Shown here: in pieces, positions 471-49,778 of the stretch | Numbering within the stretch: position 1 is the stretch's first letter | Layout of the letters: each line of letters begins with the position of its first letter | Source: a virus | IMG/VR virus record: IMGVR_UViG_3300031707_002291 | Span: 1 to 60,828 of that record | Length of the DNA: 60,828 bases | Reading direction: 5' to 3' (one strand) | Made by a program: the position numbers and the translations under genes | Notes under the pieces: generated by a model | Databases searched by the model: none | Seen by the model: the letters and a program-made list of their open reading frames with translations, nothing else | Told to the model about the DNA's origin: nothing

Positions 471-2009
471 ATGACGATGCGTTATGCGGGGCCGCCGTTT
501 GGGCCGCACCCCGCGCTTCGCACGCCCAACCTGTTCGGAGGTCCAGGCGTCGACCCGCGTTACTTCGGGTCCGGCGCCTACCGGACCATGAGCTTCTCGG
601 CCTGGAAGGAGCAGGAGGAGCTGATCGCCGCCCAGGAGGGCCGGCGGGCTCACATTCCGCCTACCGACCGCCAGGGGATTCCGAGGGACATCGCCCACGT
701 CGCCGACCCGGACGAGTTGCTGGCGTGGGCACAGGGCATCATCAAGCGTCACGCCGACACCGACCAGACCCAGAAGGCCGCGGCCGCGGTGGCGGCGAAG
801 ATGAGCGACGACTGGAAGCGGGCCGTCGCCTCGTCTGACCCCGAGGCCATCCGGGCCGTCGTGCGGGCGGCCGCCATGGAGCTTCGGGACACCGACCCCA
901 ACATCTGGCCGTCGCCGCCGGTCACGCCGGGCGACTTCCTGCTGGAGTTCGGCGTACCGATCGACCCGACTGAGCTGATCGTGCTGTGCGAGGAGCTTGG
1001 GCTCTACACGGCGCTACCAGAGATCACCAACGGGTCGGCCGTCGAGATCTACAGGGAAATGGACCAGCTCGAGTTCGCGTCGGGCTGCGACTCGTGCGCT
1101 TTCCCCAAGGGGGCGTGCCCGGAGGACTTCGTGCATGACACCGATGTCCTCTCCATGACGAAGCGTCACATCGGCGTCAAGAAGACCCTCAGCGAGTCGG
1201 ACATCCGGCACTCGATCGCCGGTATCGCCGGCGGCATGGGCGTGAACCAGCTCATCGGCGGGTTCAACGATCAGGGCCTGCCCGGCGAGAAGGACGTAGC
1301 CAGTCTCATCAGGGGCGGCGTCGCCGACCTGAAGGAGAAGGAACTCCGGCTGGCGATGATTCTCGTCCTGAATTGTTGGGATGACCTCATTGTCAACGGC
1401 GACAACTTCGCGAACCCGCTGGAGTTCGACGGCATCACCAACCTGATCACCGCCGCCAACGGCGCCCGCGCCTGTCCGGCGTGGATGTCGGGAACGTTCA
1501 GCGCGACCAACTTCGACCGCTTTATCGCCGGCGGGTGCTCGCACCCCCAGGCCATCATGGCGCACCCGACGGCGCTGGCCGAGATCGCGCTGGCCTACTA
1601 CTCCATCGGTAGCCAGACCGTGATGTTCGACAAGAACGAGGGGATCGTGCCCGGTCTCAACTTCGCGTCGCAGATCATGGCTGGAATCGGGCCGGTTGCT
1701 CTGATCGGGGACTCGCGCTTCCCGCGCCAGGACAACGGCAACGGAACGTTCGACACCATCGTCTACCCGGTCCGCCTGACCCACAACGGCGAGCCGCTCA
1801 TCTACAAGGCGACCCAGATCCCCTTGAGCGCCAAGGACCTGACGCCAGGGTGTACCTCGATCGCCTTCGAGATATGGGCGGTAACTGCGCTCGTTGTGAA
1901 GGCATTGTGTGCGCAGTCGCTCTGTTCGATGCGCTTCACCGGACTCGTGGATGATGGGTGTACCTACGTACATCCGTGCACCCCGACACGCCTACCGGGT
2001 GGCGACTAA
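471..2009 (+). CDS. Major capsid protein (candidate)
   Basis: A 512-residue protein directly after the ChaB/scaffold gene, at the usual place of the major capsid gene. The start is ATG 471 behind a near-perfect AAAGGAGGAGG site, implying high expression. The N-terminal third contains an extended arm and a helix-rich stretch. The middle has Gly/Asn-rich strands (FSATNFDRFIAGG) and the C-terminal half has PVALIGDSRFPRQDNGNGTFD, typical of HK97-fold capsid proteins in texture. The last ~50 residues contain four Cys in an unusual low-complexity tail, which could form disulfides or reflect a late sequence change. A strong terminator follows at 2039. Identification rests on position, size, expression signal and fold-like texture, not on a diagnostic motif. 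Confidence 0.72.
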   Translation: MTMRYAGPPFGPHPALRTPNLFGGPGVDPRYFGSGAYRTMSFSAWKEQEELIAAQEGRRAHIPPTDRQGIPRDIAHVADPDELLAWAQGIIKRHADTDQTQKAAAAVAAKMSDDWKRAVASSDPEAIRAVVRAAAMELRDTDPNIWPSPPVTPGDFLLEFGVPIDPTELIVLCEELGLYTALPEITNGSAVEIYREMDQLEFASGCDSCAFPKGACPEDFVHDTDVLSMTKRHIGVKKTLSESDIRHSIAGIAGGMGVNQLIGGFNDQGLPGEKDVASLIRGGVADLKEKELRLAMILVLNCWDDLIVNGDNFANPLEFDGITNLITAANGARACPAWMSGTFSATNFDRFIAGGCSHPQAIMAHPTALAEIALAYYSIGSQTVMFDKNEGIVPGLNFASQIMAGIGPVALIGDSRFPRQDNGNGTFDTIVYPVRLTHNGEPLIYKATQIPLSAKDLTPGCTSIAFEIWAVTALVVKALCAQSLCSMRFTGLVDDGCTYVHPCTPTRLPGGD

Positions 2010-3874: not shown

Positions 3875-4825
3875 ATGCCGGCCACGGTCTACCTTCTCGA
3901 CATGCGATGGGGGCTGGGCGACGTGCTGTGCTGCACGCCGGCGGTACGGGCTCTCCGCGAGCGCGAGCCGGAAGCCACGATCCTCTTTCGTACTATTACG
4001 AAGGGGCGGCACCGCGTAGAGTACGACCCGCCAGGCAGCCCGCCGGGTAGCGGCGGCGCGCCTGACGAGATGCTCTGGTACAACCCCTACATTGCCCGAA
4101 TCCTTGACGTAGACGAGCGCGCGCCGGCCGGCGTTGCGGCGACCGAGCTCTACTACGTCAAGTATGGCGGGCCGCCGCTGGATAGACCGCTCCAGGGTCG
4201 CTACTTCGACTGCCTGGGGCTACCGTGGCCCGAGCGCTTTGACCTCGACTACTACATTCAGGATTTCGAGAGGGCCGACGCTGCCACCCTTCTCCAGCAG
4301 CAGGGCGGCAGCGCCCCGTACTGTGTCCTGACGCCGCGCGTGGGCTGGCCAGGCAAGATGTGGAGCGACGAGGGCTGGACCTACATCATCGGCCGGCTAC
4401 GCGAGTTCGGCTGGACGCCGGTAGTGATGGCGGGCCGCCGGCTACAGGGCCGGCCATGGGCCGACGCCGTGAACCTATCCGGCACGCTTGACGTCCGCGA
4501 GACCGCCGGCGTGCTCGACGCCTGCGAGGCGATGGTCTGCACCGAGGGCGGCCTGGCCCACCTGCGCTTCGCCCTGGGGAAGCCGGCCGTGGTCCTGACC
4601 TGCGCTACCTCCTACAAGGTCCAGGTCTGGGCGCCGCCCGAGCTCGTAACCGAGGTCCGGCATGCCCAATGGTGCGAGCCCTGCATGTGGCGCTTCGGCC
4701 ACGTCGAGGGCCGGCCCAGCACACCGCCAGGAAACACCCACGATTGCCCGCGCGGCATAACGCTCCGCGATCTGTCGGGCGACGCCGTCTGGGCCGTACT
4801 GCGGGAAAGGCTTTATGGGACGTAG
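3875..4825 (+). CDS. Glycosyltransferase family 9 (heptosyltransferase-like)
   Basis: A 316-residue GT-B enzyme. The N-terminal RWGLGDVLCCTPAVRALRE matches the GT9 opening motif, in which the GD-loop contacts the donor. The C-terminal half carries VCTEGGLAHLRFALGKPAVVL, the GT9 nucleotide-sugar signature region (usually D/E-GG-xxH). GT9 enzymes known from lipopolysaccharide synthesis transfer heptose from ADP-heptose. This matters here because the same genome carries an HldE-like kinase and adenylyltransferase at 47100-48487. A Cys-rich C-terminus (WCEPCMW and a later Cys) is unusual. First gene of the glycan block; donor and acceptor are inferred. Confidence 0.82.
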   Translation: MPATVYLLDMRWGLGDVLCCTPAVRALREREPEATILFRTITKGRHRVEYDPPGSPPGSGGAPDEMLWYNPYIARILDVDERAPAGVAATELYYVKYGGPPLDRPLQGRYFDCLGLPWPERFDLDYYIQDFERADAATLLQQQGGSAPYCVLTPRVGWPGKMWSDEGWTYIIGRLREFGWTPVVMAGRRLQGRPWADAVNLSGTLDVRETAGVLDACEAMVCTEGGLAHLRFALGKPAVVLTCATSYKVQVWAPPELVTEVRHAQWCEPCMWRFGHVEGRPSTPPGNTHDCPRGITLRDLSGDAVWAVLRERLYGT

Positions 4826-4841
4826 CCGATACGGTTATAAT
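4812..4841 (+). promoter_or_regulatory. Operator-type promoter P3
   Basis: Weak -35 TTTATG (4812), 18-base spacer, perfect -10 TATAAT (4836-4841). The spacer has TAGCCGATACGGTTA, a two- to three-base variant of the shared palindrome. It overlaps the end of the GT9 gene and reads into the gene at 4861. Confidence 0.7.
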
Positions 4842-4860
4842 CCGGTCCAGGGGTGGCGAG

Positions 4861-5433
4861 ATGAGACTCAAGTTCTGGCATAATCGAACAAAAGTGGGGA
4901 AGCCCTACAGTTGGTCCTTTAGGTCTCGACCAGTCCTGTTCCCTAAGTCCTGGGGCAATCAGCGCATGGGAGCCACTCCAATACGTCACTCTTATGGCCC
5001 CAATGATAGTCGCCTGGAGGACGGCGGCCGCCTGAGCGGCATTGAGAAGCATTTTATGGACGCGCAGGGCGAGAAGGGCCTATTTGTCATGCGTTTCCTA
5101 TTTTTTGATCTAGAACAAGCGGTCGCGTATTACATGGATTTGCTTATGCAGCAGTGCGGGCGTCTCTTAGAGGGCAATGATTCGCTCGCGGAGCGGGTTC
5201 GCAGTCTGCGATTGGAAGACCGGGCCTCATGGCGGGTGATCGCTGAGACCATCCACGAGGAAGGGGACGGCCAATGGAATCCGCCATTCAATCAGTTTGC
5301 CGGACTGGCCCTTTGTTTACTGGTGGCCGACAGGGCCAGCGAGAGCGGCCTGGCACCGCCATGGAACGACCAACCTCTCCGCGAAGGTGAGGAGGCCGTT
5401 TGGCTGGCCCATTTAAAGGCGGCGACTCGATGA
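4861..5433 (+). CDS. Hypothetical protein in the glycan block
   Basis: A 190-residue protein of unrecognised family. ATG 4861 was chosen because promoter P3 ends at 4841; an upstream extension would run into the GT9 gene. The sequence has an N-terminal Lys/Arg/aromatic stretch, a hydrophobic helix pair (FFDLEQAVAYYMDLLMQQCG) and a C-terminal helix (FAGLALCLLVADRA). Codon use is less GC-biased than its neighbours, suggesting later acquisition. Its stop overlaps the next start (ATGA). Confidence 0.65.
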   Translation: MRLKFWHNRTKVGKPYSWSFRSRPVLFPKSWGNQRMGATPIRHSYGPNDSRLEDGGRLSGIEKHFMDAQGEKGLFVMRFLFFDLEQAVAYYMDLLMQQCGRLLEGNDSLAERVRSLRLEDRASWRVIAETIHEEGDGQWNPPFNQFAGLALCLLVADRASESGLAPPWNDQPLREGEEAVWLAHLKAATR

Positions 5434-6452
5434 CTAAGCCGCCGCGGGTCCTGCACGTCTCCTGGCTGAAGCGCTCGGACGGCGAGACCGGGGGCGTGGA
5501 GAAGTTCGCCGCCTACCTGAAGGGCGCCCTGACCGAGCGCGGCTGGGAAGTCGTGGTGATTAGCTGGTCCGACATGCCGGGCCACGAGCGGTACGACAGG
5601 CAGAGCCTGGGGAATCCCGACAAAGCCTACATCCTCGGCCAGTGGCTGGACGGGCCGGCCTTCGGCGTCGGGTACGACATAGCCGTCAGCGACGGCTATT
5701 GGGGGATCGGGATCACGAGCCGGCCCGTCGTGCCGGTCGTCCACGGTACCTGGGCCGAGATGTTCGTGAGAATGGGGATGCGTCCGACCGACGAGGTCCA
5801 GCGCCAGGGAGAAGCCTTCAACGCTCCTAACGCCTATCCGGTTGCGTGTAGCGCCGCGTCGGCGCGCGAGCTCCGCCGGCACTACGGCCGGACCGCCGTG
5901 GCCACGATCCACCATGGGGTCGACCTTGCAGCCTTTCACCCTAGGGATGAACCGCTGCCGCCGGGCCCGCCGTGGATCGTGCTGGAGGCGGCCGGCCAGA
6001 ACGCCAAGAAGGGCGGGCGGGTCATGCCGGCGATCGCGGCGCTGCTAGGGAGCCCGTACCGGATCGACTACCTGAACGCCGGCGTCGGCCAGGAGCCCGA
6101 CGCCTTCCGGCGCGGCCACATGTTCCTACACCCGACCCGCCACGAGGGCAACGCCTATGCTTGCCTGGAGGCTCTAGCTACGGACCTGCCGATCGTGACG
6201 ACGCAGGCCGGCATTTTCGAGGACATTCCCTGGAGCGGTAGCGGCCAGACCGTGCTGGGGTATACTCTACCCGTAACGGCTAGGCCGGAGGACTTGGCGC
6301 ATGCAGTCCGCCAGCTCTGCCGCGATGTCGAGACGGGGAACATGCGAGGCATACCGCGCCGATGGGCCGAGACCAACGCCAACCTGACGGGCTTCGCCGA
6401 CCGCTGGGATCGGCTACTGCGGGAGATCGCCAGTGACCACGCGCCCTCTTGA
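5430..6452 (+). CDS. Glycosyltransferase, GT4-like
   Basis: A 340-residue GT-B enzyme. N-terminal VLHVSWLKRSDGETGGVEKFAAYL is the usual GT4 acceptor-side opening with a Gly-Gly-Val loop. The C-terminal donor half has HPTRHEGNAYACLEALATDLPIV, matching the GT4 pattern P-S/T-x-x-E-G-x-x-x-x-x-x-EA. ATG 5430 overlaps the previous stop by the ATGA arrangement. GT4 enzymes use nucleotide sugars with retention of configuration; the sugar cannot be read from sequence. Confidence 0.85.
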   Translation: MTKPPRVLHVSWLKRSDGETGGVEKFAAYLKGALTERGWEVVVISWSDMPGHERYDRQSLGNPDKAYILGQWLDGPAFGVGYDIAVSDGYWGIGITSRPVVPVVHGTWAEMFVRMGMRPTDEVQRQGEAFNAPNAYPVACSAASARELRRHYGRTAVATIHHGVDLAAFHPRDEPLPPGPPWIVLEAAGQNAKKGGRVMPAIAALLGSPYRIDYLNAGVGQEPDAFRRGHMFLHPTRHEGNAYACLEALATDLPIVTTQAGIFEDIPWSGSGQTVLGYTLPVTARPEDLAHAVRQLCRDVETGNMRGIPRRWAETNANLTGFADRWDRLLREIASDHAPS

Positions 6453-7386
6453 CCATACGCCTACCGGCCTCGTCAACTTTGACGCGGCCTACGCTGCCCT
6501 TGCCCTCGCCAGCACGATTGACGAGGCGCGCGAGATTAGGAACGCGGCGGTCGCCTTCCACGTCTACGCCAAGCAAGCTGGCCTCTCTCTGGAAATGCAG
6601 AACAAGGCCGCTGAGATCAAGTTGCGCGCCGAGAGGCGCTGCGGGGAACTCCTGGGGGAGATGGCGGAGAGGGGCGAGAGGGCTACCGATGGCAAACCAT
6701 CACAGGACGTTATGGTTTCACCCCCAACCCTGGCCGATCTCGGCGTCGAACCGATGCAGTCCTCCCGATGGCAAAAGCTGGCGGCCATTCCCGCGCCGGC
6801 CTTCGAGCGCTACATCGCCGACAAGCGGGACAGTGCCCAGGAGATCACCACCGCCGGGTTGCTGGCGCGGGGCGACAACCGGCCAGTCCTGTCCTCAGAA
6901 TCCTACGAATGGTACACGCCAGCCCTCTATGTCCAGGCGGCCCGCCGCGTCCTGGGCGGTATCGATCTAGATCCTGCCTCCTGTGATCGAGCCAACGAGA
7001 TCGTCAGGGCCGATGTCTACTTCACCCGCGAAGACGACGGCCTGGCCCATGACTGGCGGGGCCGCATCTGGTTGAACCCGCCCTACGGTGGGGCGCAAGC
7101 CGCCTTCACCGATCATCTGGTCGCCGAATATGAACGTGGCCACATCCTGGCGGCAATCCTTCTCGTCAATTCCCACGCGACCGACACGGACTGGTTCCAA
7201 CCTTTGTGGGACCACCTCCTTTGTTTCTCAGAGGGGCGCATCAACTTCATCGGCCCAACTGGAGAGATCGAGTCCGGTTCGACGCATGGCAGCGTGTTCG
7301 CCTACCTGGGTCCTGACCGTGCCGCCTTCGCTGGCCAATTCCGCGACTTCGGCGCAATCGTCGAGAGATATCATGACGATTCGTGA
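6433..7386 (+). CDS. DNA N6-adenine methyltransferase (phage Dam-like)
   Basis: A 317-residue protein starting with GTG inside the end of the GT4 gene. The N-terminal ~130 residues (AAEIKLRAERRCGELLGEM) match the helical lead domain seen in many phage and plasmid adenine methyltransferases. The catalytic part begins near ESYEWYTPALYV, continues with GGIDLDPASCD and has WLNPPYGG as motif IV (N-P-P-Y). It probably methylates adenine in phage DNA for restriction avoidance. The start of a PD-(D/E)XK-like gene overlaps its end. Confidence 0.85.
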   Translation: MTTRPLDHTPTGLVNFDAAYAALALASTIDEAREIRNAAVAFHVYAKQAGLSLEMQNKAAEIKLRAERRCGELLGEMAERGERATDGKPSQDVMVSPPTLADLGVEPMQSSRWQKLAAIPAPAFERYIADKRDSAQEITTAGLLARGDNRPVLSSESYEWYTPALYVQAARRVLGGIDLDPASCDRANEIVRADVYFTREDDGLAHDWRGRIWLNPPYGGAQAAFTDHLVAEYERGHILAAILLVNSHATDTDWFQPLWDHLLCFSEGRINFIGPTGEIESGSTHGSVFAYLGPDRAAFAGQFRDFGAIVERYHDDS

Positions 7387-7729
7387 CCTCGACAAGTACG
7401 TGGCCCGGCTGTGGGATTGGGGGTTTCTAGACCAATGCTTCGGTGCCACCGGCATCAGGGTCTCGGACCTAGATGGCATCGTCGAGAGAAACGGCCGGTT
7501 CTTGGTAATCGAGGCTAAGGGGACGGGGCAAGCCGTTCCTGTCGGACAGGCGCGCCTGTTCAGGGCCTTCGTCAATACGGGCCTGTTCACGGTTCTTGTC
7601 CTTTGGGGCGAGACGAACAAACCAGCCAGAATGTCGGCCTTCCCAGGGCCAGCAACGGCTTGCACGACGGCCGACATTCTGGACTTTGTAACGGTCTGGT
7701 TTCAATATGCGGATGAGGCCAGGCCATGA
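7373..7729 (+). CDS. PD-(D/E)XK-superfamily nuclease-like protein
   Basis: A 118-residue protein starting at ATG 7373, overlapping the methyltransferase end by 14 bases. It has the compact nuclease-like order DLDGIVERNGRFLVIEAKGTG: an Asp, then E-x-K, followed by a Gln in VGQARLF, as in VRR-type or RecB-type folds. Similar small proteins occur in actinophages without known activity. Tight coupling to a DNA methyltransferase invites a modification-linked role, but that is inference. Confidence 0.65.
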   Translation: MTIRDLDKYVARLWDWGFLDQCFGATGIRVSDLDGIVERNGRFLVIEAKGTGQAVPVGQARLFRAFVNTGLFTVLVLWGETNKPARMSAFPGPATACTTADILDFVTVWFQYADEARP

Positions 7730-8142
7730 TCCACCCCCACCTGGTCCTGCGATTCATGGCGCCTTACCCGCCGCCGGCGCTCCTACCCAATAGCCGCGCG
7801 CATTGGGCCGCGAAAGCGAACGCGGCCACCAAATATGGCCTGGAGGCTGGCGACGCCATCATGGCCTACTGCGCCCAGGCGGGCCTCCAGCTTCCGCTCG
7901 GCTACCGGCATGGACGGTTAGCCACTACCCACCACTTCACCCGCCAGGCGGCCGACCCGGACAACTGCGTCGGCGCCCTGAAGCCCCTGATCGACATCCT
8001 CCAGATGGCCAACGCCGGTAGCGGCGTCCGGTTCCGTCTGGGCATCATCGAGAACGACCGCAACCTCCAGGTCTCCGAGCCCGTCCGCCGGCCGCGTAGC
8101 CCGTTCGGGAAGGTGATCGAGTGCGTTTTGGAGGTATGGTGA
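7726..8142 (+). CDS. rusA: RusA-like Holliday-junction resolvase
   Basis: A 138-residue protein, near the usual RusA length. PDPDNCVGALKPLIDIL type acidic motif (here ADPDNCVGALKPLIDIL) and the later GIIENDRNL supply the conserved Asp residues that bind metal in RusA resolvases. RusA resolves four-way junctions made during recombination and replication, which fits the RecT/SbcCD set elsewhere. The start overlaps the previous stop by ATGA. Confidence 0.78.
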   Translation: MIHPHLVLRFMAPYPPPALLPNSRAHWAAKANAATKYGLEAGDAIMAYCAQAGLQLPLGYRHGRLATTHHFTRQAADPDNCVGALKPLIDILQMANAGSGVRFRLGIIENDRNLQVSEPVRRPRSPFGKVIECVLEVW

Positions 8143-8363
8143 GGATCGACAAGATCATCGACGCCATCGGGATCTGGCCGTTTCGCCGGCCCCCGCGCCC
8201 GCCCGATCCCGACCTACCGCCGGACCGTATCACCAAGGGCTTTCCGCCGGCGCCGCTGGGGCCGAATTATGTTGAGGGCGGCCACGACTGCCCTGCCTGT
8301 GGGCGGTTCTACGTCTGGCCATGGTGGCACCGACTGGTCAGGGGGCATTGGCCTACGCGATGA
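8136..8363 (+). CDS. Small Cys-containing hypothetical protein
   Basis: About 75 residues. The start is uncertain: GGAGG sits immediately before ATG 8136, and GTG 8139 has better spacing. A Pro-rich stretch is followed by GHDCPACGRFYVWPWW, one CxxC pair plus an aromatic cluster. The gene is coupled to both neighbours by overlaps. No function is recognised. Confidence 0.55.
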   Translation: MVRIDKIIDAIGIWPFRRPPRPPDPDLPPDRITKGFPPAPLGPNYVEGGHDCPACGRFYVWPWWHRLVRGHWPTR

Positions 8364-9349
8364 ACATCTGGCTACAGTCCAGCGTCTTCGCCCCTACGCC
8401 AGCCCATGCCACGGCGGCTCTGGAGTACCTGGTCGCCAAGTTGGGCGAGAACCTGAGCGGCCTGGGGCACCATGTCACGCTCTTTGCCCTCCAGGGCTCC
8501 GACGTACCCCGCGTCGAGCTCGTCACGGTACCGCGGTACACCACGCCATCGGCGACCGAGACCGCGATCGTAGACCGGATGGAGCGCCTACCGCGCCCCG
8601 ACGTACTCTTTGACCACAGCCGCTGGCAACAGGCCCAGACCCGATGGCCGGCCCTACCGGCCGTCACGATGATCCACGGCAACGCATCCCTGGAGGCCCA
8701 CGCCCGTAATCTCGTCTTCTGCTCTGTGGCTCACGGCCGCTGGCACGGCCGGCCGAACCCGGTCGCCTTGCACAACGGGATCGAGCCGGCCGACTTTCGC
8801 GTAGGCCCGCCGATGGCGCAGCGCCGCGGCGCCCTGTGGATGGGGCGCATCATGCCCTATAAGCGGCCGCATTTGGCCGTGGACATGTGCGAGCAGGCCG
8901 GCGTAGCGCTCACCATCGCGGGCCCGGCGGCCGACGCCGGCTACTTCCAAATGTCCATGCGGCCTCGGTTGAAGCCGGAGGGCTGGGCCGACTACGCCGG
9001 CGAGGTCGCCGGCGACGAGCGCCTCCGCCTCCTGTCCGAGTCCTGCTGCCTCCTTATGACGTCAGAGGCCCAGGACCCGGCGCCGATCGTGGTGATAGAG
9101 GCCATGGCGTCCGGCACCCCGGTCTTCGCCTTCGACCACGGCTCGCTACCGGAGTTCGTCCGATTTGGCGTAAGCGGTTTCCTCTGGAAGACCGTTGACG
9201 AGTTCGTCGAGGCCCTACGGCTACACCAGTGGCAACAGATCGACCCGGCCGTGTGCCGGCAGCACGTGGAGGACCACCTGAGCATGGCCACGATGGCGCG
9301 CAAGGCCGAGGCCCTGCTGGCCCAAGCCGCAGAGGGGGCGACATGGTAG
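8360..9349 (+). CDS. Glycosyltransferase, GT4-like
   Basis: A 329-residue GT-B enzyme beginning at ATG 8360 (ATGA overlap). The donor half has ALWMGRIMPYKRPHLAVDM and DPAPIVVIEAMASGTPVFAF, the classic GT4 EAMASGxPV signature, then PEFVRFGVSGFLW. It is the second GT4 of the block and belongs to a run of nine overlapping genes, so it is probably co-translated with the methyltransferases that follow. Confidence 0.87.
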   Translation: MNIWLQSSVFAPTPAHATAALEYLVAKLGENLSGLGHHVTLFALQGSDVPRVELVTVPRYTTPSATETAIVDRMERLPRPDVLFDHSRWQQAQTRWPALPAVTMIHGNASLEAHARNLVFCSVAHGRWHGRPNPVALHNGIEPADFRVGPPMAQRRGALWMGRIMPYKRPHLAVDMCEQAGVALTIAGPAADAGYFQMSMRPRLKPEGWADYAGEVAGDERLRLLSESCCLLMTSEAQDPAPIVVIEAMASGTPVFAFDHGSLPEFVRFGVSGFLWKTVDEFVEALRLHQWQQIDPAVCRQHVEDHLSMATMARKAEALLAQAAEGATW

Positions 9350-10146
9350 ACGAGGCCACGGAATACTGCTTCCAGCTAGCCTCTGAATACTGGCCCGGCC
9401 TACCCCGCGAGGAGTTCGACGCCTGTAGCGCCGTGGGCGCCGAGGCCGCCGTATTGCTGGAGGCCGAATGGCAAGACGTGACCGGCCCGGACTTCGACTG
9501 GCAGGACATGAGCGCGGCCGCCCAGATACCGCCAGCCGCGGTCCGCGCCTTCTACGAGCGCTGCTTCGGCCTAATCTTCGAGCTAATGCGCGGGATCGGC
9601 CCACCTGACGAGATGTGGGCTGGCGACCATCGGGCCAACATCGTCCATCAGTACATGACACACCTTACGGCCCATGGTCCGGTCCTCGACTATGGCGGAG
9701 GGATCGGCCAGCAGTCGATGTTCCTGGCGGCTCGGGGCTGGACGGTGGGATTTGCCGACCTAGGCGAGACCGCCGCCTTCGCCAGGTGGCGGTTCGAGCG
9801 GGCCAACCTACTAGCCTTGCCCGACGGCTGGCGCGGCGGTACAATCCGGGCCTTCCCGCCCAGCGTAGCCCTGAGACATCAGGGCTGGGGCAGTCTACTA
9901 GCCCTTGACGTGGTCGAGCATATCCCTGACCCCATCGGTCTACTTCGGCGCTTCGACTCCTGCCTAGCGCCTGATGGCGTCCTATACCTGACGCGTCATA
10001 GCTTTCGGCCCTACCCAACTCATCTACCCGAGAGCGCGCCGCTCATGGAGACCCTAGACGACGTGCTAGCCAGCATGGGATACCGGCGCGCCATCGAACC
10101 TGACGGCCATTTCGGAATCGGTGCCTGGCGGAAGGTGGCGGCATGA
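9343..10146 (+). CDS. SAM-dependent methyltransferase (class I), small-molecule type
   Basis: A 267-residue protein from ATG 9343, overlapping the previous stop. Motif I is VLDYGGGIGQQSMFLAARGW (SAM-binding Gly loop). The acidic strand-2 residue is in VGFADLGETA. LLALDVVEHIPDPIGLL is the post-motif II typical of methyltransferase type 11/12. These enzymes usually methylate small molecules or sugars; being among glycosyltransferases, O-methylation of a glycan is the best guess. Confidence 0.8.
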   Translation: MVDEATEYCFQLASEYWPGLPREEFDACSAVGAEAAVLLEAEWQDVTGPDFDWQDMSAAAQIPPAAVRAFYERCFGLIFELMRGIGPPDEMWAGDHRANIVHQYMTHLTAHGPVLDYGGGIGQQSMFLAARGWTVGFADLGETAAFARWRFERANLLALPDGWRGGTIRAFPPSVALRHQGWGSLLALDVVEHIPDPIGLLRRFDSCLAPDGVLYLTRHSFRPYPTHLPESAPLMETLDDVLASMGYRRAIEPDGHFGIGAWRKVAA

Positions 10147-10394
10147 GGCTAGGTAAAGGTCATCGCACAACCCTCGTCCAGATGGGGCTCGATCCAGACA
10201 AGCCTACCGTCAGGCAGTATGGCCGCGCCCCCGTTGATCATTCGGTACCCGATAGCGCCCTAGTAACCTTCTTTACCTTCGTCGATACGGGGATACGACC
10301 AAATAGGCCATGGACAGACATCGAGGGAGAGCTATTGGCCCTTTTCAAGATTATTGCAGTCAATAACGGAATGAAGCGATCCGATGCGCTCTGA
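10143..10394 (+). CDS. Small hypothetical protein
   Basis: An 83-residue protein with ATGA coupling to the gene before and an 11-base overlap with the gene after. The C-terminus is helical (DIEGELLALFKIIAVNNG). No family is recognised; it is kept as a gene because of the tight overlaps on both sides. Confidence 0.5.
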   Translation: MRLGKGHRTTLVQMGLDPDKPTVRQYGRAPVDHSVPDSALVTFFTFVDTGIRPNRPWTDIEGELLALFKIIAVNNGMKRSDAL

Positions 10395-10902
10395 GGTCAT
10401 GAACTGGATGCGCCAGGCCGTGCGGCGCTATAATCCCGACCCTCCGGTCCTCGAGGTCGGGGCCTACAACGAGAACGGCACGGCCCGCTCGCTGTTTCCC
10501 CAGCCTGGCTACCTGGGCATAGACGTCCGCCCTGGGCCAGGCGTCGACATGGTGGCCGATATCCTGGGGCCAACGGAATTCGCCGGCTACGGTACGGCCT
10601 ACGCCTGCGAGACCTTGGAGCATGTGCTGGAGCCTTGGGTAGCGATCGAGCGGATGTTTGCTGCCCTTCGGCCCGGCGGCCTATTCCTGGCGACCTGGTG
10701 TTTCAGCTTCCCGATCCACGCCGCGCCCCGCGACTTCTACCGCGTCACGCCCTACGGCCTCCACTACCTCCTGAGCCGCGCCGGCTTCGTGGAGATCGCG
10801 GTCGATACCGCCGGCACGAATCGCCCCGCCGGCCGGCCGCCCGCGGAGGAGGACTGGCAGTGGCCCGACATGGTGGCGGCGGCCGCTCGGAGGCCGGTAT
10901 GA
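10384..10902 (+). CDS. SAM-dependent methyltransferase, second of four
   Basis: A 172-residue class I methyltransferase. VLEVGAYNENGTARSLFP is a degenerate motif I, GIDVRPGPGVDMVADI gives the acidic ribose-binding region, and ACETLEHVLEP the motif II area. LRPGGLFLATW is the typical strand before the C-terminal beta-hairpin. Short versions of this fold are common in polysaccharide clusters. It is translationally coupled to the next methyltransferase. Confidence 0.75.
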   Translation: MRSEVMNWMRQAVRRYNPDPPVLEVGAYNENGTARSLFPQPGYLGIDVRPGPGVDMVADILGPTEFAGYGTAYACETLEHVLEPWVAIERMFAALRPGGLFLATWCFSFPIHAAPRDFYRVTPYGLHYLLSRAGFVEIAVDTAGTNRPAGRPPAEEDWQWPDMVAAAARRPV

Positions 10903-11462
10903 CGTGGGAGCAGATGCAGCGCGGCGAGCTGGAGTGGTGGCGAGCCTTCCTGGCCCGGCCCCACGCGCTGGAGCGCCTGTTCGCCCTCTACGGCTATCGC
11001 TACCTGGACTTCTTCTTCAAGGAGTTCAACGACCTCGGCAACGTGATCGACTTCGGCTCGGGGCCGGTATCGGCCGCTTGGATAGCCGACCGGCCGCCAG
11101 AGGAAGTGACCTGCATCGACCCACTGTTCACGGCCTACCGTAAGGTTGGGTTAGTCTATGGTAGGGCCAGGGAACCCGCAGGTACGATTCCGGCCGAGTT
11201 TGACACAGCCCTGGTCCTGAATGTCCTAGACCACGCCGACGATCCAGTCCCCATACTGATAACCGTAGCGGGAACGCTTAAGCCGGGCGGCAAAGCGCTT
11301 GTGTGGGTTCACGTGGAGCAGCCAGCGGACGCCTTGCACCGCCTCATCACGGCAGGCGATGTTCGAGGCTGGCTGAAGTTGGTGGGTCTGACAATCACGC
11401 GAAGCAACATCCGGCGCGGCCTCGGTCCGGCGCAGTTCATGGCTGTGGCGGAGCGGCAGTAA
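10899..11462 (+). CDS. SAM-dependent methyltransferase-like, third of four
   Basis: A 187-residue protein with ATGA coupling to the gene before. VIDFGSGPVSAAWIA is motif I, EEVTCIDPLFTAY motif II, and TLKPGGKALVWVHV the late strand. The N-terminal 45 residues form an amphipathic helix region with many Trp/Phe/Tyr. A sugar or polyol substrate is inferred from the neighbourhood. Confidence 0.75.
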   Translation: MTWEQMQRGELEWWRAFLARPHALERLFALYGYRYLDFFFKEFNDLGNVIDFGSGPVSAAWIADRPPEEVTCIDPLFTAYRKVGLVYGRAREPAGTIPAEFDTALVLNVLDHADDPVPILITVAGTLKPGGKALVWVHVEQPADALHRLITAGDVRGWLKLVGLTITRSNIRRGLGPAQFMAVAERQ

Positions 11463-11995
11463 TGAGCAACCTACCGGCGCCGGCGTGGCTCGAGCTAGGT
11501 TGTGGCCTGAACAAAGCGGAGGGCTACTTCGGCGTAGACCGCGCCGGGCTGGTCGGCGTTGACCTGGTACATGACCTGGAGATCCACCCCTGGCCCATCA
11601 GCGCCGGCTGTGCCGAGCGGGTCGCCTGCTATCAGACCCTCGAGCATATCCGCGACATGCTGGCCTTCATGGCCGACCTCTGGCGGGTCTGCTCCGCAGA
11701 GCCGCAGGCCTGGGTCGAGATCACGGTGCCGTACCACGCGGCGCCGACGGCATGGGGCGACCCCACGCATGTCCGCGCCTTCACCGAGGACACCTTTCGG
11801 TACTTCGAGCCCGGCTACGTCGAGCGCTTCAGCGACTATGGCATCGCGCCCCACCACTTCCACATCGTTGACCTGGCGTTTCGGCTGGCCGGCAACCTGT
11901 GGGTCCTCCTCCGGCCGCTCAAGACCGAGGCCCAGCTAGCCGCCCATGAGGAGGAGCGCTGGTGGCGCGATCGGAGGGCGGCGATGGTCGGCTAG
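11462..11995 (+). CDS. SAM-dependent methyltransferase, fourth of four
   Basis: A 177-residue protein whose ATG shares one base with the previous TAA. WLELGCGLNKAEGYFGVD is motif I as seen in the predicted SAM methyltransferases of polysaccharide loci, followed by VDLVHDLEIHPWP and ACYQTLEHIRD. HHFHIVDLAFRLAGNLWVLLRP at the end matches the usual close of this family. The fourth methyltransferase in a row. Confidence 0.78.
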   Translation: MSNLPAPAWLELGCGLNKAEGYFGVDRAGLVGVDLVHDLEIHPWPISAGCAERVACYQTLEHIRDMLAFMADLWRVCSAEPQAWVEITVPYHAAPTAWGDPTHVRAFTEDTFRYFEPGYVERFSDYGIAPHHFHIVDLAFRLAGNLWVLLRPLKTEAQLAAHEEERWWRDRRAAMVG

Positions 11996-12053
11996 AAGGC
12001 TTGGAATTTGGCCCATGTTTAGAATCTGACGTTTTTGTCGCAAGGGGTGATGT

Positions 12054-12863
12054 ATGGGGCCTACTGCCAGCATTGTGGTCCTGACGATGAACCGCCGACA
12101 GGCCCTAGAGGACTGCCTGGCGGCCATCGTGGAGAAGACTACCACGCCCTATGAACTACTTGTGGTCGACAATGGCAGCACCGATGGTACGGTAGCCTGG
12201 CTAGAGGCCGCAATCCCGCGCGGGATCAACACCTACGCCCCCTGGCGGACGTTCTGCATGAGCGAAAACTGCGGCGTTTGTGCCCGAAATGTTGCCCTGG
12301 ACGCGGCCGCCGGCGCCTTCATCCTTCAGGTAGACGACGATGTGGTCGTGGGGCCCGGCTGGGATATCGCTCTGCTGAAGCCTCTGCTGGCGGACCCCGC
12401 CGTCGGGGCCGTCGGCCAGCAGGGATTCTGGCTTAACTGGCCAGGCCTCCAGCATCCGGGCCGGACGCTATTCCTAGACCAGCGCCTACCCCAAGCCGGC
12501 GACTTCTGCGACCTGGTGATGGGCTACTGCTGGGCCTGGCGGAATGACCGCCTGCCGGCTACCCTGAGTCAGCATACCGAGGGCACCCCGACGGTCCCGC
12601 GCTTCCGGTATGACGAACGCTTCAATCCACACTGGCACGAGGAAACCGACCTCCAGCTCCAGATCAAGGCCGCCGGCTACCGTATCCGGTGCGGGCCGGT
12701 CGTGAGCCAACACCGTAGCATGAAGTCCTGGCACGCCGCCCACAACGGCGACCCGATGGTCGGGCTCCAGCACGCCGTCGCGCACGAGCACCTGCTAGTC
12801 CAGAAATGGGGCGGGCGGCGCCAGGACCTAGGATTAGAGTTAGACAGGAGGGGATTGCAGTGA
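12054..12863 (+). CDS. Glycosyltransferase family 2
   Basis: A 269-residue GT-A enzyme. SIVVLTMNRRQALEDCLAAI is the GT2 opening; VVDNGSTDGT binds the nucleotide; LQVDDDVVVG is the metal-binding DxD; HEETDLQLQ near residue 195 carries the ED-type catalytic residues. ATG 12054 lies after a 58-base gap with the ribosome site AAGGGG. Codon and structure are typical of the block. Confidence 0.85.
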   Translation: MGPTASIVVLTMNRRQALEDCLAAIVEKTTTPYELLVVDNGSTDGTVAWLEAAIPRGINTYAPWRTFCMSENCGVCARNVALDAAAGAFILQVDDDVVVGPGWDIALLKPLLADPAVGAVGQQGFWLNWPGLQHPGRTLFLDQRLPQAGDFCDLVMGYCWAWRNDRLPATLSQHTEGTPTVPRFRYDERFNPHWHEETDLQLQIKAAGYRIRCGPVVSQHRSMKSWHAAHNGDPMVGLQHAVAHEHLLVQKWGGRRQDLGLELDRRGLQ

Positions 12864-13162
12864 GTGGCATGAAGCGGATGTCTGTCGAGGACTTTCAACG
12901 CCTGGGCTATTTGCAGGAGGTGAACCGCCAGTTTCTTCACCCACTTGGCCTGGCCCTGGAGGTCACCACTGGCGGCGGCGAGCCAAGCCGCCTAAGTGGC
13001 ATCTGGGACTGCCGAGACGAGCCCGATGGCTTGATTTTCGAGGAATCCGAACTCGGCGAAGCGGAGCGCACCCTCGCTAACCGCATAGAGGAGGAGGGCA
13101 AGGTCAAGGCCACTCACCGTCTGGCTTCCCTGGGCTACATCGTGCAGCCCATCGGCCAGTGA
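12860..13162 (+). CDS. Conserved phage protein of unknown function
   Basis: A 100-residue protein starting at GTG 12860, overlapping the previous stop (GTGA) and preceded by ACAGGAGGGG. The opening MSVEDFQRLGYLQEVNRQFLHPLGLALEV resembles a hypothetical family seen across phages of high-GC hosts. The second half is acidic and helical. No biochemical role is known to me. Confidence 0.65.
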   Translation: MSGMKRMSVEDFQRLGYLQEVNRQFLHPLGLALEVTTGGGEPSRLSGIWDCRDEPDGLIFEESELGEAERTLANRIEEEGKVKATHRLASLGYIVQPIGQ

Positions 13163-13338
13163 GCCTCTTTCTGCGGCGCGCCTGGCACATCATCGCCGGC
13201 CACGGCAAGTCGTTTGAGATGGGCATTTTCTACTCCAGGTGCCGGCGCTGCCGTCGCGCCTGGGCGACGACCAGCTCGGGCGCGCTCTCCGGCCTGGCCG
13301 GCGAAGCGGCGCGCATTGTTCTGGACGAGGTGAAGTGA
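13159..13338 (+). CDS. Small CxxC protein (59 aa)
   Basis: A 59-residue open frame from GTG 13159 (GTGA overlap with the previous stop) to TGA 13338. It has an amphipathic basic N-terminus (LFLRRAWHIIAGHGKS) and a single knuckle CRRCRRAW. Too little sequence for a family; translational coupling supports it as a gene. Confidence 0.5.
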   Translation: MSLFLRRAWHIIAGHGKSFEMGIFYSRCRRCRRAWATTSSGALSGLAGEAARIVLDEVK

Positions 13339-13368
13339 GTAAGCATTTGGCGCGGAAGTGCTCATAAT

Positions 13369-13668
13369 ATGCGCAGTTTTGAGCCGTCCGACTACCGGCC
13401 GCGCGTCCTGTTCACCCAGGTGCCCGGCGGCTATCCACCAGCGATGGCCTGGGCGCGACGCCAGCAGGGACGAGGCCGCCGCGATCGGGCATGGGGCGGC
13501 CGGCTACGGCGGGCGCATCTGGACGTGCTAGCGGCCCGCCGGCGCGCCGCGGACGAGCGGCTGAACGCCTTAGGCCGGCTCGCCATGGTGGGCGAGAGGC
13601 TCGGCTTATTGTCCACGTCCGGCGACAAACCGCGCGACATTCCGGGTGCCGGCCCACATCTACGGTAG
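13369..13668 (+). CDS. Hypothetical basic protein (weak call)
   Basis: A 99-residue, very Arg-rich and Ala-rich frame with no clear ribosome site before ATG 13369. It may be a real DNA- or RNA-binding protein or a chance frame in GC-rich DNA. A TAATAT element overlaps the start codon, but no -35 is at the right distance. Confidence 0.35.
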   Translation: MRSFEPSDYRPRVLFTQVPGGYPPAMAWARRQQGRGRRDRAWGGRLRRAHLDVLAARRRAADERLNALGRLAMVGERLGLLSTSGDKPRDIPGAGPHLR

Positions 13669-13750
13669 ATTCGCGCGGCCGCGACATTGGGCGCGACAAT
13701 AGAAGGGGAACCGTCCCAATCCTGAAGGAACTGGACAGGAGGGATCTACA

Positions 13751-13987
13751 GTGAAAATGGTCTTGGATAACGGCCGGGGCACGGTCACCATCAGCCTTGA
13801 GGACGGCGATTTCCTGGGCGACTACCAATACTATCGAGGACCTACCATCGAGGAGACCTTCCCTGTGACCGACCTAGGGGGCCGTCTGTGGGCAGACTAC
13901 CAATTGGTTAGATTTGCCTGGGAGCATTTCGCGGGCCGACAAGGGACTCATAGTTTCGCTGGCACCGTAATCCAGAAGGAAGAATGA
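13751..13987 (+). CDS. Small hypothetical protein
   Basis: A 78-residue protein from GTG 13751 with a good ribosome site (ACAGGAGGG). The composition is acidic and aromatic with beta-like strands (GTVTISLEDGDFLGDYQYY). It sits one base before the next glycosyltransferase, so the two are probably co-translated. Family not recognised. Confidence 0.6.
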   Translation: MKMVLDNGRGTVTISLEDGDFLGDYQYYRGPTIEETFPVTDLGGRLWADYQLVRFAWEHFAGRQGTHSFAGTVIQKEE

Positions 13988-13988
13988 C

Positions 13989-15251
13989 GTGAAGGTAGTA
14001 GTGATCAGCGAGTTCAACCTAGCCGTGGGGTCCGGCTACACGACGATCGCGCGCGCCATCGGCGCCGGCCTGGGCGAGCGCGGGCATGACGTGAAGGTCC
14101 TGGGCATCGACTACAACGGCTGCGAGCACCGCCTACCGATCACGGTCCTAGGCGCTGACGAGCGTTTCCTAATCCCCCACCTACGGCAGCTCGACCTGGC
14201 GTGGGGCATCGAGGCCGTGGTCGTGACCCACGACATTACCAAGCATCTACAGTTTCGCGCCATCATGGACGCCTACCCGTACGTCGGCATCTTCCCGCTG
14301 GAGAGTGACCCGCTCATGCACCCCAGCGAGTGGACGCGCACCATCGACGGCATGGGCGCCGCCCTGGCCGAGACCGAGTGGGCGACCCAGCTCTGTGCCG
14401 ATGTCGGCCTGACGGTCCGCCACATCCCGATCGGCGTCGACAGCGAGTTCTGGCACCCGCCGGCGCCGGCGGACCGCGACGCCATCCGCGCCAGGCTAGG
14501 CGTGGCCGACCGCTACGTGCTCCTGACCGTCTCGGATAACCACGAGCGCAAGAACCTGCCGGCCGTCTTCGCGACGGCGGCCCTCCTCCAGGGCCGCGAC
14601 ATCGAATGGCCCGCTGGTAGTGGCCATCGAATCTCCATGCCGGTTAACCCTGGAGAGGGCTATTTCCTGATCGTCAACACTAAGCGCCGGCCGGAGTCGG
14701 TCGGCTACTCGCTCTGGGATCTGGCCAGCACGTTCCAGCTCCAGAATGACACCACGTTCTATCAGCATGAGCGGTACGGCGGCCTGAGCGACGCGGAGCT
14801 GCGGAACCTGTATTGGGCGGGCGATTGCTTTGTCCTGCTCTCGAAGGCGGAGGGGCTCGGGCTGCCGGTAATGGAGGCGATGGCCTGCGGCTTGCCGTGC
14901 GTCTGCACCGACGCCGGCGGCATGGCGGAGAACCTGGCCGATGGCCGCGGCTGGCTAGTGCCGGCCGAGTATAGCCACATAGACCCGTTCTGTAACCAGA
15001 TCCGGCGGTACGCCGACCCCTACGAGGCCGCCAAGGCGATCGCCGACTTACGGGCGCGTGACGATGATCGCGCCGGGCGGGTCGTGGCCGCCCTGGAGTG
15101 GGCGCGGGGCCGGACGTGGGGTAAGGCTCTGGACGTGCTAGAGGAGGCGCTTGATGGACTCGTCAAAGCGAAGACAGAACAGGCGGGGGCGGCCCCACCA
15201 GCGGCCGCCTACGCCGGCGCTCTCGCCGGCGGCAATCCCGCTTCGCGGTAG
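13989..15251 (+). CDS. Glycosyltransferase, GT4-like
   Basis: A 420-residue GT-B enzyme from GTG 13989. VVVISEFNLAVGSGYTTIARAIGAGL is the acceptor-side opening. LLTVSDNHERKNLPAVFA marks the inter-domain strand with the Lys/Arg that contacts phosphate. LLSKAEGLGLPVMEAMACGLPCVC is the full GT4 E-x7-E signature. A C-terminal tail of ~30 Ala/Pro residues overlaps the next gene. It is the clearest GT4 in the window. Confidence 0.9.
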   Translation: MKVVVISEFNLAVGSGYTTIARAIGAGLGERGHDVKVLGIDYNGCEHRLPITVLGADERFLIPHLRQLDLAWGIEAVVVTHDITKHLQFRAIMDAYPYVGIFPLESDPLMHPSEWTRTIDGMGAALAETEWATQLCADVGLTVRHIPIGVDSEFWHPPAPADRDAIRARLGVADRYVLLTVSDNHERKNLPAVFATAALLQGRDIEWPAGSGHRISMPVNPGEGYFLIVNTKRRPESVGYSLWDLASTFQLQNDTTFYQHERYGGLSDAELRNLYWAGDCFVLLSKAEGLGLPVMEAMACGLPCVCTDAGGMAENLADGRGWLVPAEYSHIDPFCNQIRRYADPYEAAKAIADLRARDDDRAGRVVAALEWARGRTWGKALDVLEEALDGLVKAKTEQAGAAPPAAAYAGALAGGNPASR

Positions 15252-16038
15252 CGTCGACGCCGTCGTTTCGGCGCGCCATGAGGTCGGGCGCCTACCGGCC
15301 TGCCTGGCGGCGCTAAGGGCGTACCTACCGGCCGACGCCACCATCACGGTCGCCGACAGCCCGCCGGGCCGGCCGGCCGAGGCCAATGCCGGCGAGCGCC
15401 ATACCCAGATCGCTCGCATGGCGCGAGAGGTCAACGGCCGCACCGTAGTCAACGGCCATGGTCAGTGGGAGTGCCGTAACAGGGCGGCCGCCCAGGGCTT
15501 CGCCCCTTTCATCCTTTTCCTTGACGGCGATGTGGTCCTGACGCCCGACGCCTGGCCGACGCTTCTGGGCGCCATGGCCCACGAGGAGGTCGGGATCGCG
15601 ACGGGCCTGCTACTGTGGGATGAAGGCCTGGCGCCCCGCGAGATGCCCCTGGCATCCTGCATCAAGTTCGCCGGGTACGCCTTCGGCCTCCGGCGCCTGC
15701 CCTATGCGCGCTTCGTGGGCTGGCTGCCCGACAACCCCAAGGTCTACCCCTGCTCGGACCTCCAGGCCGTCAGCGCCGCCTTAATGCTGACGCGCCGGCC
15801 GCTCTGGCGCTCGCTCGAGGGGTTCGCTACCGACTACGGCAGCCGCCCCCTGGCCGATGTAGACTTCTGTGTGCGGGCCCGGAGCCAGGGGCCGGTAATC
15901 GCCTTCGAGCCGGCGGCCCTGGCGCTAGCCGGCCTGGAGCCACTAGCGGACGACATGATCCTCTTACAGCAGGGCGGCGCCATCCTAGACGCCCGGCTCG
16001 GGCCACACCGGCAGTATGATGAGTTTAACCTGCTGTGA
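15154..16038 (+). CDS. Glycosyltransferase family 2-like
   Basis: A GT-A enzyme of up to 294 residues. SVDAVVSARHEVGRLPACLAAL (about residue 33 on) is the GT2 opening, and FILFLDGDVVLTPDAW the DxD metal site. LADVDFCVRARSQG is the later catalytic Asp region. ATG 15154 follows GAGGAGG but makes a 98-base overlap with the previous GT4; the catalytic fold begins only after the overlap, so a later start is possible. Last gene of the glycan block. Confidence 0.78.
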   Translation: MDSSKRRQNRRGRPHQRPPTPALSPAAIPLRGSVDAVVSARHEVGRLPACLAALRAYLPADATITVADSPPGRPAEANAGERHTQIARMAREVNGRTVVNGHGQWECRNRAAAQGFAPFILFLDGDVVLTPDAWPTLLGAMAHEEVGIATGLLLWDEGLAPREMPLASCIKFAGYAFGLRRLPYARFVGWLPDNPKVYPCSDLQAVSAALMLTRRPLWRSLEGFATDYGSRPLADVDFCVRARSQGPVIAFEPAALALAGLEPLADDMILLQQGGAILDARLGPHRQYDEFNLL

Positions 16039-45125: not shown

Positions 45126-45128
45126 GGA

Positions 45129-45254: not shown

Positions 45255-45271
45255 GCTTCAACCTTCCCGCC

Positions 45272-46228: not shown

Positions 46229-46295
46229 ACTCTTGGCTCCTAGCTACACCAAGAGCGTAGCACAGACTGGCTACTGTGTCAAGTATATTATTGCC

Positions 46296-46818: not shown

Positions 46819-47103
46819 ATGGAGACCGAGAACGTACCGACCAGCCTGCGGCCCCGCCCGCCAATACCGCGCGCAACGCCGGCGATGCTCCGGGCCTTCC
46901 GCTCGGAGTTTGGTCTAACCCAAGCCGACCTGGTCCGTGACCTGGGCGTCACAGGACAGGCCGTCAGCCGGTGGGAGCGCAACGCGCAGAACATCCGGCA
47001 CCCCCAAATGCTCTACCTGGCGCTTCAGCGCCTGCGCTGCATGTATCACCGGCGCGCCAGGCAGGCCCGACTGTCGAAGGTGGCGCCTAGGGCGGCCGCG
47101 TGA
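46819..47103 (+). CDS. HTH transcriptional regulator (XRE-like), candidate operator-binding protein
   Basis: A 94-residue protein behind GGAGG. The centre (residues ~26-60) is a helix-turn-helix of the XRE/HTH_3 type: AFRSEFGLTQADLVRDLGVTGQAVSRWERN, where TGQAVSRW is the recognition helix. The C-terminal third is a basic helix. It lacks a dimer or protease domain of CI-type repressors. It is behind one of the shared-palindrome promoters and is the only phage DNA-binding regulator of this kind seen, so it is the best candidate for binding TAGCCGTANCGGCTA. Confidence 0.78.
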   Translation: METENVPTSLRPRPPIPRATPAMLRAFRSEFGLTQADLVRDLGVTGQAVSRWERNAQNIRHPQMLYLALQRLRCMYHRRARQARLSKVAPRAAA

Positions 47104-48023
47104 GCCAAAGCGGCGGCGCGGCGGCTGACCGTCCGCCCTGGGCACCCCGATCGCCGATCCTAGTGATCGGCGACATCTGTACTGACGTATTCCTCCGGGT
47201 AGCGGCCTCGCGTTTGTCGCGCGAGGCGCCGTTACCCGTTTTCTCGTTGGAGGAGGATGCGATGGTGCCGGCCGGAGAGGCGGAGGGCGGCGCCGGCAAC
47301 GTGGCGCGCCAGCTTCGGGCCTACGGCGTCGATGCCGTGCTAGTGCCTACCGGCCATCAGCCCAAGGTGCGCGTCTTGGCTGGCGTGCCGCCCCGCGAGG
47401 TCTTCCGGCTTGACGGCGTGTGGGCCGCGCCAGCTTCGGAGACGATGGCCCGCGCGGCCGTCGAGATAGCGCGGCGGACGTTCTCGGCCGCCGTCTACGT
47501 TGACTATCAGGGAAGGGCTGGCCCGGCACCGGGCGCGGCAGTGGTCCTAGCCGGCCTACCGCGCGGCGAATGCCCGCTCCTGGTCGATGCCCGCTCTAGC
47601 CTCGAGGGCTGGTGGGGCGTCGACCTACTCAAGATGCACATCAGCGACGCCGGCCTGGGCGAGAGCCCGAACCCGACCGAGGTTCGGGCCGCCCTGGAGC
47701 GGTCGGGCGCCTTTCGCCTTATCCTGACGCGCGGCGCCGCCGGCCACATCCTAGTCGGCCCCCGCTGGATCTCTCCCCGGCCGGCGGTACAACTGGAGGG
47801 GCCGGTCCTGAACACCAGCGGCGCCGGCGACATCTTTACCGCTACCCTGGCCGCCCTAGTCGCCGGCCGGCCCTCGCTTCTAGCCAACAGGGGCCAGTTG
47901 GAAGGCGCGGCCGAGATCGCCAGTCGGGCGGCCGCGCTGCGGGTCCGCAAGTCGGGCTATAATGAGGCCGTCACGAGCGAGGAGATGGCGCCATGGTGGC
48001 CGTCTGGAACGCCGAGCCCCTAG
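47100..48023 (+). CDS. HldE-like heptose-phosphate kinase domain (PfkB family)
   Basis: A 307-residue protein from GTG 47100 (GTGA overlap with the HTH gene). It is like the N-terminal domain of HldE: ILVIGDICTDVFL at the start, EGGAGNVARQLRAYGVDAVLV for substrate binding, and LNTSGAGDIFTATLAALV, whose GAGD holds the catalytic Asp (about residue 244). HldE phosphorylates D-glycero-D-manno-heptose 7-phosphate at C1. In most bacteria it is fused to the adenylyltransferase; here the two parts are separate overlapping genes. The real sugar substrate is unproven. Confidence 0.82.
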   Translation: MSQSGGAAADRPPWAPRSPILVIGDICTDVFLRVAASRLSREAPLPVFSLEEDAMVPAGEAEGGAGNVARQLRAYGVDAVLVPTGHQPKVRVLAGVPPREVFRLDGVWAAPASETMARAAVEIARRTFSAAVYVDYQGRAGPAPGAAVVLAGLPRGECPLLVDARSSLEGWWGVDLLKMHISDAGLGESPNPTEVRAALERSGAFRLILTRGAAGHILVGPRWISPRPAVQLEGPVLNTSGAGDIFTATLAALVAGRPSLLANRGQLEGAAEIASRAAALRVRKSGYNEAVTSEEMAPWWPSGTPSP

Positions 48024-49692: not shown

Positions 49693-49778
49693 CCTGTCAT
49701 TCGCAGACTCAGCACCGAACGGCGCGTGTACGCACCCGTGCGCGACGCCAACTCCTGGGGCAGCAGACTGACTCTGGC

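Follow-up and report, generated by a model that had tools for sequence, protein, structure and literature searches.

The stretch of DNA analysed here (60,828 bases; hereafter the window) is the IMG/VR record IMGVR_UViG_3300031707_002291, a complete soil phage genome. The 127 bases at its start recur exactly at its end, and this terminal repeat indicates that the window represents a closed genome of ~60.7 kb. It encodes capsid, portal, terminase, tape measure and tail proteins, as well as RecT, SbcC/D-like and sigma-factor-like proteins. Between the capsid gene and the neck and tail genes, which begin at 16646, lies a block of glycan-related genes in which Pfam searches identified one GT9, three GT4 and two GT2 glycosyltransferases and four class I methyltransferase-like proteins. 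At a second site, a compact PfkB-type kinase gene is followed by a nucleotidyltransferase gene, both of the HldE type (Table 1).

Table 1. Genes of the glycan block, its capsid anchor and the HldE-type pair in the window (x/9, number of phages including the window)
Feature	Position	Strand	Evidence and conservation
Major capsid protein, anchors the block	471..2009	+	weak PHROG 212 match; 60-79% identity in 8 relatives
GT9-family glycosyltransferase	3875..4825	+	PF01075 5.6e-11; 54-77% identity in 8 relatives
GT4 glycosyltransferase a	5430..6452 (ORF 5400-6452, start probably 5430)	+	PF13439, PF13692; in 9/9
GT4 glycosyltransferase b	8360..9349 (ORF 8321-9349, start probably 8360)	+	PF00534 1.7e-12; in 9/9
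Class I methyltransferase a	9343..10146 (ORF 9229-10146, start probably 9343)	+	PF13489 1.9e-9, clear; motif DYGGGIG; domain missing in G003
Class I methyltransferase-like b	10384..10902	+	PF13489 0.002, below cutoff; 50-82% identity in all relatives
Class I methyltransferase c	10896..11462 (ORF 10635-11462, start probably ~10896)	+	PF13489/PF08241 borderline; motif DFGSGP; not found in G003, G011
Class I methyltransferase-like d	11459..11995 (ORF 11303-11995, start probably 11459)	+	PF13489 0.0029, below cutoff; motif ELGCG; 51-81% identity in all relatives
GT2 glycosyltransferase a	12054..12863	+	PF00535 3.4e-18, 66.6 bits; in 9/9
GT4 glycosyltransferase c	13989..15251	+	PF00534 8.7e-17; in 9/9, truncated by locus end in G009
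GT2 glycosyltransferase b	15151..16038 (start probably near 15250)	+	PF00535 3.8e-5, 24.1 bits vs cutoff 23.3; window and 7 relatives
Compact HldE/HldA-type PfkB kinase	47100..48023	+	TIGR02198 2.3e-17; best PDB profile match HldA 9.5e-38; best fold match HldA; in 9/9
HldE/HldC-type nucleotidyltransferase	47993..48487	+	TIGR02199 2.4e-23; best fold match HldC 5xf2; in 7/9

Among 50,697 phage records, neither a DNA relative of the window nor a protein relative of its GT9 or kinase was found. Relatives were gathered by searching with the GT9, capsid, kinase and nucleotidyltransferase sequences, which recovered at least eight (G001, G002, G003, G005, G009, G010, G011 and G012); with the window, designated G000 in the family searches, they form a lineage of nine soil phages of ~60 kb. 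Six of the relatives are IMG/VR contigs of 51-61 kb, and G009 and G010 are contigs inside metagenome-assembled genomes (MAGs). A further candidate, G006, was left out, as its kinase figures against the window were identical to those of G001, with zero differences between the two. The supported tree groups were the window, G001 and G002 (capsid and GT9), G011 and G012 (all three trees) and G003 and G010 (GT9); these groups, short of a formal test, are compatible with common descent of the block and the capsid. A prophage search for the host with the capsid gave no match. A search with GT9 pointed to a Methyloceanibacter contig (JALHTP010000159.1, L066; 61.6 kb) and an Elusimicrobia contig (MGUL01000026.1, L067; 56.4 kb), which were rejected as host evidence: both are of phage-genome size and the MAG phyla differ, so they are probably binned phage contigs of this lineage.

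The glycosyltransferase genes lie downstream of the capsid gene in identical order in all eight relatives, and the preservation of the order and content of the block in eight further phages indicates that it did not arise by chance. The inventory given in the earlier note on this DNA was thus confirmed by Pfam and by conservation, with the qualification that methyltransferase-like proteins b and d score 17.8-18.3 bits, under the Pfam cutoff, and are so called from sequence resembling S-adenosylmethionine-binding motifs and from their conservation. For G009 the last GT2 gene was not covered by the sequence retrieved, and the final gene covered is incomplete at the locus end in G009, G010 and G012. 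Several open reading frames (ORFs) of the block overlap, with the probable real starts given in Table 1; start/stop overlaps occur among the methyltransferase genes, and such overlapping suggests coupled translation. No likely transmembrane segment was found in any block protein, the top 19-residue hydropathy being 1.52. The region also holds a Dam-type DNA adenine methyltransferase gene (PF05869; 6433-7386), which lies inside the block, is not a glycan enzyme and is absent at that place in the relatives. An HNH endonuclease gene (16054-16566) of the region is likewise no part of the shared block, and a 138-aa protein (7726-8142), RusA-like by eye and without a Pfam match, is encoded inside the block in most relatives.

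The two genes at the second site were assigned by several comparisons. The kinase scored 63.1 bits against TIGR02198 (rfaE_dom_I) versus 26 for ribokinase, and the nucleotidyltransferase scored 82.6 bits against TIGR02199 (rfaE_dom_II) versus 32.9 for glycerol-3-phosphate cytidylyltransferase. Placements of the pair as ribokinase, phosphofructokinase, glycerol-3-phosphate cytidylyltransferase, CoaD or NadD all scored lower and were rejected. When a profile of the phage kinases was searched against the PDB, B. cenocepacia HldA came first (9.5e-38; next, 7e-14). The AlphaFold models had mean pLDDT (predicted local distance difference test) values of 85.8 for the kinase and 89.3 for the nucleotidyltransferase; HldA chains occupied places 1-7 in the Foldseek search with the kinase model (1e-18 vs 3e-13), and HldC 5xf2 occupied places 1-3 in the fold search with the nucleotidyltransferase model. 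The kinase shares with E. coli HldE the motifs GD..D, RxSxExPxPV, KxR (degenerate in G010), RxD, DYxG and the catalytic GAGD, and the nucleotidyltransferase shares part of its motifs, NGxxDxxHxGH and, for the most part, KG..RP. Profiles, sequence matches in the PDB, motifs and fold together placed the pair with HldE, so that the outcome which the earlier note had named as refuting its view, another sugar-kinase or nucleotidyltransferase family, did not occur. In the PDB sequence profile search with the nucleotidyltransferase, ethanolamine-phosphate cytidylyltransferase ranked slightly above HldC, which makes the placement of this enzyme less firm.

We tentatively favour the reading that a fixed cytosolic module makes a methylated glycan whose acceptor is a virion protein, with the HldE-type pair supplying a heptose-like donor. 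The six soluble glycosyltransferases would assemble a short oligosaccharide in the cytosol, up to four methyltransferases would methylate it, and the glycan would be transferred to a capsid or tail protein before or during assembly. The kinase would phosphorylate a sugar 7-phosphate and the nucleotidyltransferase would activate the sugar 1-phosphate, both in the manner of HldE, and the pair would thereby make a nucleotide-activated heptose, or something closely similar, more abundant, the isomerase and phosphatase being supplied by the host. GT9 would be the natural candidate user of this donor, a link that we infer from co-occurrence. The glycan would probably be carried on the virion and possibly contain a heptose-type residue.

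The virion is favoured as the acceptor because of the position of the genes inside the virion gene region, the soluble character of the enzymes, which have no likely membrane segments, and the precedent of the mycobacteriophages. Known cases of virion glycosylation in mycobacteriophages involve far fewer sugar enzymes than the block of this lineage. For Che8, Corndog and Myrna, it is established that phage-encoded glycosyltransferases glycosylate the capsid and the tail tube (Freeman et al. 2023, cited in PMC12363180 and PMC12619734), and the papers considered here mention no heptose donor genes (PMC12363180, PMC12619734). Alternatively, the block could make or modify a polymer of the host surface (the core or O-chain of lipopolysaccharide (LPS), or capsule), for instance to prevent renewed adsorption or superinfection, and the pair would then supply ADP-heptose to its synthesis. 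Such a role has been assigned elsewhere: pelagimyophages carry rfaE plus glycosyltransferases, which their authors read as modifying the host O-chain (PMC7029224), and a cave-pool phage contig carries glycosyltransferases plus HldE, read as LPS synthesis (PMC11671562). LPS-core heptosyltransferases are likewise soluble or peripheral, so the missing membrane segments do not exclude it. However, the block is located among structural genes, it encodes no flippase, polymerase, anchoring glycosyltransferase or other membrane protein, and its GT9 lacks the LPS heptosyltransferase signature described below; we therefore regard a host polymer as a rather unlikely acceptor.

It is also conceivable that the methylated glycan ends up on phage DNA, which the glycosyltransferases would then hypermodify. 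Phage glycosyltransferase clusters that glycosylate DNA are reported (Pyle et al. 2024, as cited in PMC12619734), and a DNA methylase gene adjoins the pair. Against this, thymidylate-synthase-type (PF00303) and Tet/JBP dioxygenase (PF12851) families are absent in seven lineage genomes, although the control for Tet/JBP was weak, and the glycosyltransferase genes are positioned among structural genes. A DNA acceptor thus appears very improbable.

Several observations weigh against the part of the favoured reading that concerns heptose, and the donor site of GT9 is the first of them. The phage enzyme scores above the family threshold (PF01075, 42.7 bits vs a gathering cutoff of 22; that of G003 reached 20 bits, just below the cutoff, in a six-frame search), and PDB profile searches with it gave weak matches only. 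Its dN/dS (ratio of nonsynonymous to synonymous substitution rates) with the nearest relatives is ~0.2, like that of the capsid gene, indicating purifying selection of about equal strength; values against the remaining relatives are inexact, the synonymous sites being too diverged. Characterised LPS heptosyltransferases carry the signature D261(T/S)(A/G)xxH266, with D13 and H266 present in all those analysed (PMC3559599). The phage GT9s fail this signature, having E(G/S)(G/T)xx(H/N) instead: EGGLAH in the window, G001 and G002, EGGL(T/S)N in G005, G009, G011 and G012, and ESTMSN in G003 and G010. Asp261 is accordingly replaced by Glu in 9/9 phages and His266 by Asn in six, being kept in three, while the equivalents of Asp13 and Lys192 are retained in all nine.

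The idea that loss of His266 disproves the use of ADP-heptose was considered and dropped, as Asp261 and His266 correspond to Pro300 and Trp305 in TibC, an enzyme that transfers heptose from ADP-D,D-heptose to protein (PMC4358343). ADP-heptose may thus still serve the phage GT9, because TibC lacks the Asp261/His266 pair as well. WaaC, WaaF and TibC resemble the phage enzyme as GT9/GT-B relatives in which the Asp13 and Lys192 equivalents are kept, and TibC also in the loss of that pair; the phage GT9 differs from all three in its Glu and His/Asn at these places, in a Cys-rich C-terminal stretch and in an SGGAPDEMLW insert. The suggestion in the earlier note that GT9 uses ADP-heptose was therefore weakened by the altered site, while the retained residues speak for it and the TibC precedent shows that the alteration does not disprove it. 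A more specific version of the proposal, in which virions bear protein-linked methylated heptose glycans, the compact pair supplies ADP-heptose and the variant GT9 is a protein heptosyltransferase and viral counterpart of TibC, seems unlikely.

The pair raises further difficulties. Both enzymes miss the curated equivalog cutoffs by far (63.1 vs 345 bits for the kinase, 82.6 vs 181.5 for the nucleotidyltransferase), ~28 residues of E. coli HldE are missing from every phage kinase, and the KGGDY stretch is gone from the nucleotidyltransferases of the lineage (HxGH is found in 7/7, KG..RP in most, STT in 3/7 and KGGDY in 0/7). The deletion and the loss of KGGDY imply that the substrate of the pair could differ from that of HldE. 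Bacterial HldE, HldA and HldC thus agree with the phage pair in family, fold and main motifs but differ from it in the sub-equivalog scores, the shorter kinase and the lost KGGDY; the term HldE-type is justified for the pair, whereas calling it HldE is not. In addition, the pair and the block are ~16 kb apart around the closed genome. Families corresponding to GmhA (SIS_2, PF13580), a GmhB-type phosphatase (HAD_2, PF13419) and HldD (epimerase, PF01370) were unmatched in G000-G003 and G005, with the limit that one general HAD family was used for GmhB, so that an odd GmhB outside HAD_2 could escape. The absence of these three enzymes, already remarked in the earlier note, was borne out in the closed genome, and ADP-heptose would consequently require host enzymes.

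Co-occurrence of GT9 with the pair, another expectation of the earlier note, was observed in part: all nine phages with GT9 have the kinase, but only seven have the nucleotidyltransferase, as G003 and G010 keep GT9 and the kinase without a complete pair, which is one half of the second outcome that the note had named as refuting it. In G003 the kinase gene abuts the ParB-methyltransferase gene directly, and G010 has an unrelated ORF of 104 aa between the two. Because the GT9 tree joins G003 with G010 as sister phages, the absence may reflect one loss. All nine phages belong to one lineage, and the association of kinase and GT9 therefore represents co-inheritance rather than nine independent associations. 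These observations bear on a further possibility, namely that the pair is unrelated to the glycan block and makes or salvages another activated sugar or metabolite, or merely raises the ADP-heptose of the host. The pair adjoins the ParB-methyltransferase and large terminase region, distant from the block; two phages retain the kinase although they have no nucleotidyltransferase, the kinase is evolving faster than GT9 (37-52% vs 54-77% identity to the window), and deletions relative to HldE are shared. On the other side, the kinase accompanies GT9 in every phage, though within a single lineage, and in marine phages similar pairs adjoin genes for an epimerase, a cupin and a HAD protein near the tail fibres. 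A role for the pair apart from the glycan is accordingly possible, though somewhat doubtful.

The earlier note had called a phage with both ends of a heptose route unusual, a view weakened by cyanophages, pelagimyophages and the cave-pool contig, for which HldE-like genes with glycosyltransferases are already on record; the novelty in this respect is modest. In the cyanophages P-SSM2, S-CAM1 and P-TIM68, an HldE-type nucleotidyltransferase is encoded as a separate gene, like the stand-alone gene of this lineage, together with an epimerase; P-SSM2 and P-TIM68 also have an annotated carbohydrate (PfkB-type) kinase nearby, and all are tailed phages with glycan-related genes, as here. Unlike in this lineage, the cyanophage cassettes lie beside tail fibres and include an epimerase, a cupin-type gene and a small annotated phosphoheptose isomerase. 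The last annotation looks doubtful, as the proteins concerned (L036:10101-10445 and L034:10092-10415) have 107-114 aa and no Pfam match. Marine phage cassettes (L047:6276-11005 and L005:9977-12598) encode a cupin, a small HAD-like protein, an HldE-type nucleotidyltransferase and kinase (split or fused) and an epimerase, and adjoin tail genes; a marine gene that is GT9-like by eye (L047:6276-7148) had no Pfam or NCBIfam match and was not used as evidence of co-occurrence. The pelagimyophage and cave-pool phage resemble this lineage in having an HldE-like gene and glycosyltransferases in one phage genome but differ in that their genes are read as LPS genes and are not reported as a fixed capsid-tail block. 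Our literature search, outside which most subscription journals fell, found no paper on a heptose-bearing virion glycan. New in this lineage are the fixed position of the glycan block among the structural genes, the compact HldE-type pair, which is split into two genes and located at another site, and the changed donor site of GT9. Thus, of the suggestion that the phage builds a heptose-containing glycan with its own donor-making steps, the real and conserved block and the HldE-type pair stand, whereas the GT9 donor, full co-occurrence and rarity were weakened.

Elsewhere in the window, the large terminase gene (49602-52601) contains an intein with an HNH domain at about residues 719-973; an unbroken match suggests that it is also present in G003, and it is absent from G001, G002, G005 and G011. 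A two-gene stretch of lower G + C content (44154-46243; 59%), encoding a DUF3800 protein and a 420-aa protein without a family match, is absent from G001, G002, G003 and G005 and is therefore probably a recent insertion. An S-adenosylmethionine decarboxylase-like gene (PF02675; 32324-32674) is conserved in G001, G002 and G005, and a 163-aa protein (43335-43826) has a DNA polymerase beta thumb domain (PF14791) at its end.

Glycan genes of environmental phages are usually classed as modifiers of host LPS. A glycan module fixed among the structural genes of a whole lineage, together with a partial donor route, would suggest that phages inherit the decoration of their virions as a trait of their own. 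For studies of how this family chooses its sugars, GT9 with Glu and Asn in its donor site provides a naturally occurring variant, and the lineage offers a clear, testable case of which sugar is used, which protein receives it and whether missing steps are contributed by the host.

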